A DNA stretch of 45,381 bases from the NCBI GenBank assembly GCA_017415775.1, contig JAFQFC010000024.1, positions 1 to 45,381 on the forward strand. The letters are read 5' to 3'. The notes below the pieces were generated by a model. That model was not told the DNA's origin. It saw only the letters and a program-made list of their open reading frames with translations, and ran no database searches. The stretch's first letter is position 1; each line of letters begins with the position of its first letter. This DNA comes from Oscillospiraceae bacterium (lineage in GTDB: Bacteria; Bacillota; Clostridia; Oscillospirales; Oscillospiraceae). The position numbers were made by a program, and so were the translations under genes. Positions 28,183 to 34,848 of this stretch are shown here, piece by piece.

Positions 28183-29576
28183 GAGCGCTGCTGCAGCAGT
28201 GGATCGCCCATCACCGCAGCGAATTGCTGGCGGATCTGGCCACCCTCATCGAAGTGCCCAGCGTGGCACGGCCCGGGGCGGACGGTCTGCCCTACGGCAG
28301 AGAGTGCCGTGAGGCGCTGAGTCGTGCCGAGACCATCGCCCGGAAGCTGGGCTTCGCCACCGACGTGTGGGACGACACGGTGCTGACGGTGGAATGGGGC
28401 GGCAGGGACGTGCCCTTCTGCATGCTGTGCCATCTGGACGTGGTGCCTGCCGGGGACGGCTGGGCCACCGACCCCTTCCGCCTGACGGTGGAGGAGGACT
28501 GCATCCGTGGCCGGGGCGTCACCGACGATAAAGGCCCCGCCGTGGCCGCCCTGTACGCCATGGCGGCGGTGCGGGAGCTGTGGCCGGAGCTGCGGTGCAG
28601 CCCCCGACTGTGGCTGGGGACCGCCGAGGAGATCGGCAGCGGCGACATGAAGCGCTGGCTGCAAAGCCACGCCATGCCCCCCTACGTCATCACCCCCGAC
28701 GCCACCGATCCTCTTGTCATCGGCGAGAGCGCCAAGTACCGCCCCGCCATCTCCGCTGCGTGGGAGCGCTCGCAGGCCCTGCCCCGGGTAACGCACCTGC
28801 AGGGCGGACGGGTCCGCAACGCCATTCCTGCCGCCGCCGAGGCCACCGTGGCCGGACTGACTGCCGCTCAGGTGCAGCCGCTGGCCGATGGTTGGACCGA
28901 GAAAACGGAGGTGGTCTTCACCCTCACCGACACCCCCGACGGTCTGCACATCGCCGCCCATGGCCGGGGCGCACACATCGGTAAGCCGTGGCTGGGCCGC
29001 AACGCCCAGACGGCGCTGACGGGCCTTCTGGCAGACCTGCCTCTGGCGGATGGTGGCTCCACCCGGGCCGTCCGCTCCCTTGCGAAGCTGTTCCCCTACG
29101 ACGATCCCCACGGCGAGGCCCTGGGTCTGACGGTGTCCGACCCCATCATGGGCCGCTGCCGTGTCAACGCCACCACCTGCACCCTCGGCGAGGAGGGGGT
29201 GGTGTGCCAGTTCGACTCCCGTGGCGGCGCCAACACCACGGAGGAGAACTATGCCCGCATCATCGACAAGGCCTTGCGCTCCGAGGGCTTCACGGTGGAG
29301 CAGTCGGAGATGGACGCCGCCCACTACGTGCCGCCCACGGCCAAGATCGTGGAGGACATGGCGGCTCTGTACCGTGAGGTGCGGGGCATGGATCCCGCCA
29401 TCGTGTCCATGGTGGCAGGCAGCTACGCCCACTTTGTAGAAGGCGCCATCGCCGTGGGCCGGGCAGAACCCGGCGTGGACTGCCGCATCCACAAGGCCGA
29501 CGAGTGGCTGCCGCTGGCAGATCTGGACCGTCTGGTGGAACTGCTGGCATTGAGCATCGTGCATTTTTGTGAGTGA
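28179..29576 (+). CDS. M20 family dipeptidase (PepV/Sapep-like)
   Basis: A 465-residue zinc metallopeptidase. CHLDVVPAGDGWATDPF (metal His and catalytic Asp), GRGVTDDKGPAVAALYA (bridging Asp), GTAEEIGSGD (catalytic and metal Glu) and PDATDPLVIGE follow the M20 order. An inserted dimerisation/lid domain spans about 200-350, and a late GSYAHF histidine completes the site. Length and pattern fit PepV/Sapep dipeptidases. ATG 28179 overlaps the stop of the SemiSWEET-like gene, so the two are coupled. Cytoplasmic. Confidence 0.9.
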   Translation: MRALLQQWIAHHRSELLADLATLIEVPSVARPGADGLPYGRECREALSRAETIARKLGFATDVWDDTVLTVEWGGRDVPFCMLCHLDVVPAGDGWATDPFRLTVEEDCIRGRGVTDDKGPAVAALYAMAAVRELWPELRCSPRLWLGTAEEIGSGDMKRWLQSHAMPPYVITPDATDPLVIGESAKYRPAISAAWERSQALPRVTHLQGGRVRNAIPAAAEATVAGLTAAQVQPLADGWTEKTEVVFTLTDTPDGLHIAAHGRGAHIGKPWLGRNAQTALTGLLADLPLADGGSTRAVRSLAKLFPYDDPHGEALGLTVSDPIMGRCRVNATTCTLGEEGVVCQFDSRGGANTTEENYARIIDKALRSEGFTVEQSEMDAAHYVPPTAKIVEDMAALYREVRGMDPAIVSMVAGSYAHFVEGAIAVGRAEPGVDCRIHKADEWLPLADLDRLVELLALSIVHFCE

Positions 29577-29586
29577 ATTGGATAGG

Positions 29587-29892
29587 AAAAGTCCCTGCTT
29601 GTAACAGTATAAGACAAAACTGCCCGAAGAAGAGAAAGTAAAGCTCTTTTTCGGGCGGTTCTTTTTATTTAGTGATATTCTTTGCTTCGCAAAGAGTGAT
29701 ATTTCCCTTTCGGGAAGTGATATTGAAACCTTATGGCTTCAGTGATATTTTATTCGCCTTAAACTGCCGTAGGCAACATCACTTGAACTTTAGTTCAAAT
29801 ATCACTGCTTTAGCAATATCACTCGCCGCAAGGCGAATAAAACTGCCCAAGTGTCCTTACGAACACTTGGGCAATCAATCAGGGACTTTTTT
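29587..29892. repeat. Hairpin array with GTGATATT/AATATCAC borders, enclosed by an outer inverted repeat
   Basis: Outer arms AAAAGTCCCTG (29587-29597) and CAGGGACTTTTTT (29880-29892). GTGATATT is direct at 29672, 29696, 29717 and 29742; the inverted word is at 29775 (AACATCAC), 29798 and 29815. Between the words are unrelated hairpins, e.g. CTTTGC-TTC-GCAAAG, TTGAAC-TTTA-GTTCAA and TCGCC-GCAA-GGCGA. TTATTCGCCTT and AAGGCGAATAA also pair. The flanking hairpins (CTGCCCGAAG…CTTTTTCGGGCGG and TGCCCAAGTGT/ACACTTGGGCA) may terminate the genes on either side. No gene is present. Confidence 0.85.
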
Positions 29893-29896
29893 GCAT

Positions 29897-30523
29897 TTAT
29901 TTGACCTGGCAGCCGCCCCACTCCACCACGGTGAAGCCGGTGCGCTCCGGAGCGGTCAGCTCCTGCGGTGCGATGTCCACCGCCTTGTCCAAGGGCTGCC
30001 ACGCCATGAACACACGCAGCACCGTGTCCGGGGCAGGGGTGACGTGCAGCCGTGCGCTGTCGGTGTAGGCATCGCCTTGGAAGGCGATGCGGTTATAGGC
30101 GTTGCCCTCCATCCGGGGCAGCCAGTAGATGAGGAACTCCTGCGCTTCGGTGTCCGTCAGGCCCAGCTTGGCAAGGGCGTCCTCCAGAAAGGCGGCGGTG
30201 TCACTGCCCGCCACGCAGAAGCCACGGGAGAAATCGTAAGCGGTGTCGCTTGCGCCCTCCCAGAACAGGCAGTAGTATTCCCGACCGGCAGCATCACGCA
30301 GGGTGCCGTCGGGGGCTGCGGTGACGGTCCAGCCGCCGTTGTAGGCGGGATAGGTGTGGGTCAAAACGCCGTCATAGTCCAGCGTCACGGTGACTTCCAT
30401 CTCCTCCTCCGGATAGAGGTAGACCACCGGCTTTTCGACCACCGGCTCGTTGAAAATATCACGGCAGGCGGTGAGAGAACACAGGCACAGCAGCGCCAGA
30501 CACAGGATCAAAACTTTTTTCAT
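29897..30523 (-). CDS. Lipoprotein with PVVYLYP motif
   Basis: A 208-residue predicted lipoprotein. The signal peptide KKVLILCLALLCLCSLTAC has a lipobox LTAC with the modified Cys at about 20. The mature part starts with EPVVEKPVVYLYPEEEMEV, an N-terminal motif recurring in Firmicutes surface proteins of unknown function, and ends FTVVEWGGCQVK. It should be anchored outside the membrane. The start follows AAAGGAGG. It lies 68 bases after the transglutaminase-like gene on the same strand and is probably cotranscribed with it. Confidence 0.82.
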   Translation of the reverse strand: MKKVLILCLALLCLCSLTACRDIFNEPVVEKPVVYLYPEEEMEVTVTLDYDGVLTHTYPAYNGGWTVTAAPDGTLRDAAGREYYCLFWEGASDTAYDFSRGFCVAGSDTAAFLEDALAKLGLTDTEAQEFLIYWLPRMEGNAYNRIAFQGDAYTDSARLHVTPAPDTVLRVFMAWQPLDKAVDIAPQELTAPERTGFTVVEWGGCQVK

Positions 30524-31959: not shown

Positions 31960-33069
31960 TCACACGCCCCAGGCGGCGCCGTGCTTTTCAAAGAGCTGCA
32001 CAAAGCGCTTTTTCTGGGCGGGGGTCATGCGGGAAGCGTACTGCTCCGCCAGCGCCACGGCGGCGGCTTCGTTGCCGGCCTTGAGGTAGTTGCCCATGGC
32101 ACGCTGCAGACTTTCGGCGGCGGCAGAGCTGAGGGACTCCTGCTTCTTCTCCCCGGTCTGGGTCTTGCCGCTGTTGGCCTTGCGGCCATCGGAGGCCTTC
32201 TGCTCCTGCTTGGCCTTGTCGGCAAAGTAGTCCAGCAGCAGCTTATATTGATCGAAATCTCGCTGATATGCGTCCTGATAGCCCTCGTCGGAGCGTTCCA
32301 GCTCCGCCAGCCAGGCTTCGTAGGCCTGCTCCCAGGCGGCCTTTTCCTGTGCCTGCGCATCCAGCGCCGCCTCGTACTTGTCCTGCAGCGCCTTGCCCTC
32401 GGCCTGATGGCGAGCCAGGGCCTGCTGCTCCAGCTCGGGGAGCAGGGCGGCCAGCTGCTGCATGTACTGGTTGTAGGACTGCTGGGCCGCCGTCTGGGCA
32501 TAGCTGGAGCCGTAGCCGCCGGTGAGCGCCGCCGCCTGACCCAGCGTGTCGGCCATGGCGGCCTCGCCGCCCTGCTGGTACAGGCGGGCGTAGGTCTGAT
32601 AGGCGGCGTCCTGTTCGGGATCGTAGGAAAAACCGCCCTGCGCCGTCAGCTGACGGTACAGGCGCTGGAGCTCCTCGTCGAAGGTGGAGGTATAGTCGCC
32701 GGGCTTGGTGGCCGACAGGCTCTCACGCAGGGCCTGGGCTGCCTGCACCTCGTCGGAGGGCTGATAGCCCTGCTCCAGCGCCGCCAGACGGTCGCTGGTC
32801 TCATCGGACACGCCGGAGAGCACCTGCTTGCCGGTGGTGCCGGTGGTGCCGGGGGTAACGGTGGTGCCCAGCAGGCTGCTCCAGGTGTTCTTGCCCACGA
32901 TGCCGTCCACGGCAAGGCCCTGCTTTTTCTGATAATCCTTCACGGCGCTGCGGGTGGCGCTGCCGAAGCGGCCGTCCACGGCCAGATTGTAGCCGTTTTC
33001 GTTCAGCTTCTTCTGCAGTTCCTTGACAGAGCTGCCGCTGCTGCCGTATTTGATGGTGGCATATGCCAT
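31960..33069 (-). CDS. Phage-cassette peptidoglycan-binding protein with long helical tail
   Basis: A 369-residue protein. Residues 1-68 form a PG_binding_1 domain (GSSGSSVKELQKKLNENGYN, then AVDGRFGSATRSAVKDYQKK). A Thr/Gly linker follows, then about 280 residues of Ala/Gln/Glu-rich predicted coiled coil. No amidase, lysozyme or peptidase motif is visible, so it is not an endolysin by sequence. It is the last gene of the cassette; a role in cell-wall contact or as an ejected/tail-tip protein is possible. The start at 33069 follows AAGGAGAAC. Confidence 0.8.
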   Translation of the reverse strand: MAYATIKYGSSGSSVKELQKKLNENGYNLAVDGRFGSATRSAVKDYQKKQGLAVDGIVGKNTWSSLLGTTVTPGTTGTTGKQVLSGVSDETSDRLAALEQGYQPSDEVQAAQALRESLSATKPGDYTSTFDEELQRLYRQLTAQGGFSYDPEQDAAYQTYARLYQQGGEAAMADTLGQAAALTGGYGSSYAQTAAQQSYNQYMQQLAALLPELEQQALARHQAEGKALQDKYEAALDAQAQEKAAWEQAYEAWLAELERSDEGYQDAYQRDFDQYKLLLDYFADKAKQEQKASDGRKANSGKTQTGEKKQESLSSAAAESLQRAMGNYLKAGNEAAAVALAEQYASRMTPAQKKRFVQLFEKHGAAWGV

Positions 33070-33087
33070 TTTTGTGTTCTCCTTCCT

Positions 33088-34848
33088 TTACGCCGTCCGC
33101 TTCCAGACATTGACTGCCAGGTACGGCGGCATGTTGTTGTGGGGTGCGCTGCCGCCGGCGGCGGTGGTTTCCACGCCGTGGGCCGTGCCGCTGCTGGAGG
33201 GGATGTAGATCTCGGCAGCAGTTTTGCCGGTCATGGTGCGGTACGTTTCGTGGCGATGGCTGGGCATTTCCTCCACCGTCAGCGTGTGCTGCGCCTCGCC
33301 GCCGGTGCTGCCGAGGGCGTAGCTGCTGCCTGAGGCCAGCAAAAATACGTCCCGGATCCGCTGCCACGTGCCGCCGAAGAGGGCGGCGGGATCGGTACTC
33401 GCCACCGACAGATAGATGCTGCCCACGGGGTAGATGCGGTCGAAGTTGATCTTGCCCCACGGCGTGGCGTCGGTGTCGTTCACCGGGTCGGGCAGGCCGG
33501 TGAGGGGATGGCCGTTCATCCACACGCCCCACGCCATGTCCACACCCGGCTGTTCCGGGTACTTGCCGAAGCCTGCGCCCACGCCGCCCTCAGCCAGCGC
33601 AAAGCTGACCGACTCGGTGGGCACGGTGCAGACCACCCGCTTCTCCTCGCCCAGATCGTCACGGGCCACCACCTCCACCTCGTAGGAGGTGTCGGCAGCG
33701 AAACCGGACAGCACCTTCCCCTGCCCGCCGGTCAGAGTGGTCTCGCCGCTCCACGAGCCGTTCACCCGGCGGTAGCGGCAGGCAAGGTGCAGGCCGTTGT
33801 TCCCGTCCACGCTGCTGACCTGTCCCACCGCCAGCACGGAAACGTACACGCCGCTGTCATTGGCGCTGCCGTCAGCGCTGCAGCGGCGCACCTGCGTGCG
33901 CAGCAGCACAGGGGGATGGTAGTCGTGCACCTGCACGCTGCTGCCCGACACCACCGCCGTGCGGCCACGGGAATCGGTGACGGTCAGCCGGGGCGTCACC
34001 GCACCGGCCTGCTGCAGGGGGATGCGGCCGCTGCTGCCGCTGACCGTCTGGCCGGCACAGCTCATGGATACTTGCGTCACGGATGCGCCGATGCCGCCTG
34101 CCGGCTCTGCCTCATAGCAAAGGCGGCTGTGGCCCTTCACGGCCACGCCCCAGCCGGCCGCTGCGCCGTCGCTTTCCACCCAGACCGTCAGCCGGGCCGA
34201 AGGCACCATACTGCCGGGGACCAGCACCGTCACCGGCACTTCCCGGCTGCCCAGCAGCGTCTCGCCGCTGTAGGTCTCCAGCGTCAGCAACGCCTGGGCC
34301 GAGGTGGCATCGGGGATCTGCGCTGCCAGGGCCGTGGGCGGCGTCCACTCTACGGTGGTGGACTCCGTCAGTGCGGCAATGGTGCCGCTGCTGCTGCCCA
34401 GCGTATAGCGCAGGGTGTGGCGCAGCCCCTCCGTGGCCGGGGTGATGTGGATCGTCCCGGCGCTGCCCAGGGTGAAGGTTCCCGCCGTCAGTTCGCTGGC
34501 ACGGGGGATGTCCGTCAGGACCAGTTCCTTGTTGGCGTAGATCCAGCGCACCGAGGTATTCACGTCGAAGGACGCCGCCACCTGCACCGTCTTTTTGCCG
34601 TCCGGATCGTGCTGCACGGTACGGGTGGCGGAATAGAGGGTCGTGGTGGTGTTCTTATGCACCTTTTTCGCCGCCAGCGAGGCGATCTGCGCCCCGTCCA
34701 GCGTGATGGTACCGGAGGTGCTGCCGGTCTCGTTCCACGTGCCGTAGGAGGTGGTGATCTTCAGAACAATGGAGATCTTGCTGGTGTTGGCCACCTTGTC
34801 GACGGAGCCTTCCACCTCCTGCACCGTCAATGTCAAACTTGCTGCCAT
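33088..34848 (-). CDS. Phage tail fibre/collar-like protein
   Basis: A 586-residue protein. The N-terminal part (SLTLTVQEVEGSVDKVANTS…) resembles DUF859-type phage structural proteins built of beta-sandwich repeats. The C-terminus has the baseplate/collar pattern YPVGSIYLSVASTDPAALFG, HTLTVEEMPSHRHE and HNNMPPYLAVNVWKRTA, which forms receptor-facing trimers in many phages. It probably recognises the host surface. It sits 3 bases from the 34852 gene, with no room for a separate promoter. Confidence 0.85.
   Translation of the reverse strand: MAASLTLTVQEVEGSVDKVANTSKISIVLKITTSYGTWNETGSTSGTITLDGAQIASLAAKKVHKNTTTTLYSATRTVQHDPDGKKTVQVAASFDVNTSVRWIYANKELVLTDIPRASELTAGTFTLGSAGTIHITPATEGLRHTLRYTLGSSSGTIAALTESTTVEWTPPTALAAQIPDATSAQALLTLETYSGETLLGSREVPVTVLVPGSMVPSARLTVWVESDGAAAGWGVAVKGHSRLCYEAEPAGGIGASVTQVSMSCAGQTVSGSSGRIPLQQAGAVTPRLTVTDSRGRTAVVSGSSVQVHDYHPPVLLRTQVRRCSADGSANDSGVYVSVLAVGQVSSVDGNNGLHLACRYRRVNGSWSGETTLTGGQGKVLSGFAADTSYEVEVVARDDLGEEKRVVCTVPTESVSFALAEGGVGAGFGKYPEQPGVDMAWGVWMNGHPLTGLPDPVNDTDATPWGKINFDRIYPVGSIYLSVASTDPAALFGGTWQRIRDVFLLASGSSYALGSTGGEAQHTLTVEEMPSHRHETYRTMTGKTAAEIYIPSSSGTAHGVETTAAGGSAPHNNMPPYLAVNVWKRTA

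Follow-up and report, generated by a model that had tools for sequence, protein, structure and literature searches.

What is the array of seven-base words and small hairpins that separates two convergent genes in an Oscillospiraceae bacterium, and how did it come to lie there? The stretch analysed here, referred to as the window, is the 45,381 nucleotides from position 1 of contig JAFQFC010000024.1 (assembly GCA_017415775.1), and the array occupies positions 29587-29892, between the converging ends of an M20 peptidase gene (29576) and a gene (29897) whose 208-aa product matches nothing in Pfam. The array is probably a non-autonomous mobile element of the S23/IVS type seated in a terminator loop, with words that are likely binding sites for S23 (PF05635, "23S rRNA intervening sequence protein").

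Words and stems of the array

Direct words, GTGATATT, start at 29672, 29696, 29717 and 29742 on the plus strand and are followed by inverted words, AACATCAC at 29775, which has one mismatch, and AATATCAC at 29798 and 29815. The window holds nine exact words where 0.43 would be expected, and 20,000 dinucleotide shuffles of 29587-29892 produced at most two words, so the array is not due to chance. Folding of the region is strong in both forms, with a z-score of -10.1 as RNA (29570-29910) and -8.6 as single-stranded DNA.

In its canonical orientation, the minus strand, the putative inserted element spans 282 bp (29598-29879) and has a 5' subterminal hairpin of subfamily c, recognised by eye (29844-29873, minus). 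A core stem (29749-29841, minus), for which covariation in alignment A1 is the evidence, then pairs TTTATTCGCC (29749-29758) with GGCGAATAAA (29832-29841) over 10 bp around the inner arm and its hairpins; this arm (29775-29822, minus) holds three hairpin-separated words that read GTGATAT, GTGATAT and GTGATGT in the canonical sense. Beyond the stem lies the outer arm (29672-29749, minus), with four words and three hairpins between them, and the canonical 3' end of the element carries a terminator-like hairpin and T run, seen by eye (29619-29660, plus), which resembles those at L029, L070 and L127 and at which a consensus scan gave no terminator. The covariance-model match of this copy (G000:C15, 29672-29843, minus) is a match by construction, because the copy is in the model's alignment.

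The core stem, which encloses the inverted words, is a rival to word-to-word pairing. The first-pass annotation had envisaged direct words pairing with inverted ones in a ladder of junctions, and covariation does not bear this out: in the 69 of 83 parsed elements that were tested, the innermost words were complementary in 3 of the 9 cases in which both were variant, against 2.16 for shuffled partners. Elsewhere in the window, phage-tail-like genes occupy 31960-34848 on the minus strand, with a peptidoglycan-binding protein beside a DUF859/Gp10_C baseplate-like protein.

Copies in other genomes and the folding of their hairpins

The window's genome contains five more similar stretches, and the covariance model finds 11 matches in it, which fall at 9 places counting that of the window. 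Exact words give 11 same-strand matches in this genome, four of them in the window, and the order of direct then inverted words recurs at two other loci while the opposite order occurs at none, a count that leaves out the window's own centre owing to its mismatch. With one mismatch allowed, the word strings of the fetched loci are mostly direct-then-inverted, and mixed strings occur too. An exact pattern taken from one small slot hairpin matches at least 113 stretches in species genomes, and the 80 titles among the matches listed are all Clostridia or other Bacillota; viral contigs, searched with one pattern, gave no match. Most of the 113 loci share a layout consisting of a 5' hairpin, then the stem TTnTATTCGCC/GGCGAATAnAA, with one hairpin per slot, GTGATAT words within the stem and ATATCAC words after it. 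Three inner words are present in 72 of the 83 parsed elements, and outside the stem there are typically four. At L040, L045, L047, L063, L123, L128 and L135 the stretch shown has direct words only and no inverted half.

Of 250 family genomes 22 match the array model, as do 59 of 391 class genomes (41 of 223 genera), with E-values that are rough. The end sequence of another subfamily, d, occurs 39 times in 11 of 12 genomes, against 0 for a control. Some copies of subfamily d are empty and cargo varies between the others, comprising a kinase (PF08543), GNAT proteins, a regulator of AraC/Cass2-like type and five proteins that match no Pfam family. Among the element ORFs scanned, none was recognisable as a transposase or nuclease.

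Thirty-three copies, including the window's, align slot by slot (alignment A1). The hairpins had been described as unrelated sequences set between conserved words; words and architecture are indeed conserved while the hairpin sequences vary, but the hairpins are specific to their slots across copies rather than unrelated. This homology between copies is evidence against growth of the array hairpin by hairpin, a mechanism proposed earlier. Local tandem expansion is seen at one locus, L038, and at L127, L130 and L061 an extra, larger hairpin sits in the loop of a slot hairpin, as though a second repeat had entered. Two-sided changes are found in 20 of the 41 predicted pairs of A1, and in its slot hairpins they far outnumber one-sided changes. 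The core stem has a variable position that forms a Watson-Crick pair in 84 of 90 elements (A-T 37, T-A 28, C-G 19). Slot stems are almost purely Watson-Crick, with 23 G-T and 13 A-C among 1785 pairs under a stem rule that favours Watson-Crick pairs, in a count that left out duplicate hairpins and loci where both strands or neither carried the anchor pattern; tRNA stems at these loci have G-T at 34 of 386 pairs. The surplus of G-T over A-C was considered as an RNA-strand signal and rejected, as it gives no strand bias (p 0.13). The scarcity of G-T together with the few one-sided changes in A1, an alignment that involves no trimming, therefore points to slot hairpins that fold as DNA, or to palindromes kept perfect by repair.

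Template-switch correction of quasi-palindromes in replication would keep the hairpins perfect without selection, leaving the words as the parts out of its reach. Such a process would give two-sided changes and few intermediates, as are observed, and the loop insertions and local expansion at L038, L127 and L130 also fit it, but slot order, conserved words, terminator targeting and the S23 link are left unexplained, which makes it an improbable account of the array.

The first-pass annotation knew of no named repeat class for the array, which needs correcting, since the Gut-1 RNA of Rfam (RF01706) spans the inner half of many copies. Rfam gave no match on the window at gathering score; below that score of 50 bits, Gut-1 matches the window at 44.8 bits (29771-29845, minus) and weakly at 40.3 bits (29630-29728, plus). 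Among 27 distinct loci scanned, 14 reach the gathering score, and the 13 misses include L001, which is the window copy, and L225 and L226, which have other words. Gut-1 is, like the inner half of the element to which it corresponds, a word-hairpin-word array of about 77 nt; it differs in that the Rfam model covers part of the element only, is typed as an sRNA and has the consensus word GUGAAAU. In the passages on it in Weinberg et al. 2010 (PMC2864571), Gut-1 is regarded as certainly a noncoding RNA and is listed solely for the human gut, and nothing is said there of mobility, S23 or terminators. Searches of open-licence PMC texts for "Gut-1 RNA" and "Gut-1 motif" found no paper. The element could thus be first a noncoding RNA gene that rides a mobile element, its hairpins serving RNA binding or processing, a reading for which the Rfam matches, the published view of Gut-1, the strong folding and a promoter-like sequence seen by eye 3' of the array in cargo copies all speak. 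The few G-U pairs of the slot stems compared with those of tRNA argue against it, and we regard it as unlikely, though an RNA 3'-end role of the array may exist despite that scarcity.

Insertion into terminator loops

Sequence comparison shows that these elements, which occupy many terminators in gut Clostridia, enter hairpin loops, above all those of intrinsic terminators, so that a stem half remains at each side of the element. Several subfamilies with differing ends, sorted by eye, have to their left an A-run and one stem half and to their right its partner half with a T-run, and these bracketing arms vary from locus to locus. Arm to arm, 25 hand-picked loci measure 280-415 bp, with exceptions of 161 and 929 bp (the latter with a gene), and some cargo-bearing elements reach 0.9-1.7 kb. 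Among elements for which a 5' hairpin was recognised and sufficient DNA was at hand, 39 in number, arms paired over at least 12 bases with their own partner in 23, against 11 of 117 swapped partners (Fisher 1.4e-9), where a cargo copy with its right arm farther than 600 nt away scored as a miss; the contrast is weaker at a cut-off of at least 11 bases (25/39 own, 30/117 swapped).

The clearest proof of terminator insertion, from sequence comparison, is an occupied and empty pair at the release factor 1 gene. In two siblings this gene is followed by an intact terminator with a six-base loop, AAAACGGAGAGC-AATCAC-GCTCTCCGTTTT, and in G277 an element of about 950 bp lies between those two stem halves. 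The gene was found in four of five genomes searched, the fourth having another terminator and no element. This is the one clear empty site, at a locus and copy other than the window's, and no target duplication is evident at it.

The window element likewise has stem halves on both sides, and the outer pair, AAAAGTCCCTG (29587-29597, plus) and CAGGGACTTTTTT (29880-29892, plus), is best taken for a terminator that the element has split, given the similar arrangement at other loci and the empty site of another copy. As far as CAGGGA, the right end corresponds to internal sequence of subfamily c, and this end may therefore be partly deleted and the arm pair partly coincidental. Support is good both for terminator insertion and for the family identity. 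The two flanking genes have retained terminator-like hairpins, and the insertion was therefore probably near-neutral. Terminator-like hairpins at both ends of the array, together with the convergent genes around it, would also suit a bidirectional terminator or an insulator of transcription that grew up at this site, but the identical element type stands at many unrelated places with locus-specific arms, plain terminators and other neighbours follow the window orthologues at L139 and L140 (proteins 72% and 65% identical), and the empty site of another copy also disfavours this origin, which is very improbable.

S23 genes, their repeats and related systems

One S23 query matched at 10 distinct array loci, and at all 10 an S23 gene (Pfam match E 2e-27) lies directly after the array on the same strand. 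Those loci had been fetched for their arrays, and a reverse search was therefore made, from S23 genes to the DNA upstream of them. For this, 40 S23 genes were hand-picked from 100 listed places without regard to arrays, two of them (G177:C10 and G022:C19) being already known beside an array-model match. Tandem 7-nt repeats lie upstream of 23 of the 40, against 1 of 396 random windows and 1 of 322 ORF upstream regions, and lag 7 stands alone among lags 4-12, the other lags giving 0-1 (one region at lag 8). A further 12 have hairpin-punctuated 7-nt words, judged by eye and mostly not GTGATAT, and five have neither. Counts of identical 7-mers were tried as a discriminator and dropped, as they separate S23 upstream regions from controls less well than lag 7. 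Across the 250 family genomes, arrays occur in 22 and S23 in 59, and S23 is present in 19 of the 22 array genomes compared with 40 of the 228 others (8e-11, with kinship between genomes ignored).

Plasmids give a similar picture. Plasmid records with S23 numbered 26, and among 12 plasmid S23 genes examined (Nostoc, Planktothrix, Treponema, Bernardetia and others), lag-7 repeats lie upstream of eight and downstream of eight, in inverted sense where inspected. At a stricter cut-off, three plasmids totalling 146 kb have five lag-7 runs and none at lags 5, 6, 8 or 9; four of the five flank an S23 gene and the fifth is 0.8 kb off with an identical word. In a tree of 58 of 60 S23 proteins, from which two under 80 aa were left out and two of the 12 plasmid loci are absent, and with word labels assigned by eye, single clades correspond to GTGATAT (99/97), RTGATGT (100/94) and TGAATTG (100/99), while proteins with the ATGAAG word do not form one, so that three of four word types track S23 clades. 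Of the GTGATAT proteins, 10 in all, nine belong to loci that were retrieved for GTGATAT or lie beside it. The hairpin-punctuated word types fall in one clade of 24 rows, together with three others.

The S23 reading of the words is thus a strong correlation, and the array words are likely S23 binding sites, judging from these sequence associations. Diagnostic parts of the family are the subterminal hairpin, the covarying core stem, the 7-nt words and the hairpin in each slot; some sibling elements have the S23 gene right after the array, some have cargo genes, and some have neither. The 282-bp window element has the hairpin-loop position and the 7-nt words and no S23 ORF, and no PF05635 match was found in the window's genome (an assembly 76% complete), G082 or G270. 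Lacking S23, and perhaps part of one end, the window copy is therefore a non-autonomous relative rather than a full member. S23 is a four-helix-bundle protein that forms a ring, as described in the relevant passages of PMC4990558, and its relative in PDB 2rld has five chains. Such a ring would bind the 7-nt words once the hairpins are extruded, an extrusion that would bring the words end to end on folded single-stranded DNA, and the complex would then find an extruded hairpin and insert there with a partner enzyme, which might be a reverse transcriptase or belong to host repair. Counting against the S23 model, the same passages of PMC4990558 hold that S23p is probably not expressed in Coxiella.

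The 23S rRNA intervening sequences with an S23 ORF resemble these elements in having a hairpin site in a host RNA gene and inverted-repeat ends, and heptamers precede the S23 ORF of the Coxiella IVS in the text consulted of PMC4990558. The elements here differ in their hosts, which are terminators, tRNA 3' ends and operons, in their hairpin-separated words and in their cargo genes. The window element lies between the M20 peptidase and 208-aa protein genes rather than in 23S rRNA, and so does not have the location of an IVS proper. Integron gene cassettes and MITEs are also small units with varied or no cargo and partly inverted ends, and the elements differ from them in the want of a recognised transposase in scanned ORFs; a subterminal inverted sequence is seen by eye in the elements. 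Avd of the diversity-generating retroelements is an S23 homologue. Homing of these retroelements requires a DNA hairpin or cruciform at the target, according to the relevant text of PMC3240598; they differ in that the elements read have no reverse transcriptase or template/variable repeat. The heptameric repeats of Xanthomonas, Nostoc and Beggiatoaceae (GGGAATC, GGGGATT, TAACTGA) are intergenic 7-nt tandems, partly in inverted pairs, and differ by having no hairpin slots; the STRR of cyanobacteria are comparable. One S23 gene on a plasmid of Planktothrix has a rotation of GGGGATT at its flanks. S23 is unmentioned in PMC4692102 and PMC4679880, according to a term search. Among the matches listed from open-licence PMC texts, no link of S23 to heptamer arrays or terminator loops was found apart from one IVS paper with heptamers before the S23 ORF, and literature on the words themselves was unrelated.

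Tentatively, S23 and its cognate 7-nt words might be what characterises a broad class of mobile elements that have no transposase of their own and enter the loops of DNA hairpins, with each contact of the S23 ring reading one heptamer of a folded single strand. To this class would belong, as members or as remnants, the intervening sequences of rRNA, heptamer repeats of cyanobacteria and others, the Gut-1 "RNA" and the terminator cassettes of the gut. The Xanthomonas and Nostoc repeats are, in the portion of PMC4692102 concerned, generally not linked to mobile elements, which counts against this widest reading. If it is true, it would give a job to the S23/IVP protein family, for which the cited paper gives no function in the passages seen, an origin to some heptamer repeats and to an orphan RNA motif of 2010, and a route by which gene cassettes spread among gut Clostridia via terminator loops.

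Further settings of S23 genes were observed. Plain heptamer arrays lie in apparent split tRNA terminators (AAAAGCGCCG ... CGGCGCTTTT) at L254 and L256 with an S23 gene just downstream, and S23 elements stand directly downstream of tRNA genes and terminators at L225, L226, L227, L245, L250, L251, L255 and L257. The plasmid genes at L260, L262, L267 and L268 are found between genes that resemble operons for defence or DNA modification, with DISARM drmD and MmeI, hsdS and hsdR, a helicase and an N6-methylase, and DUF1156 and Swt1 as neighbours.
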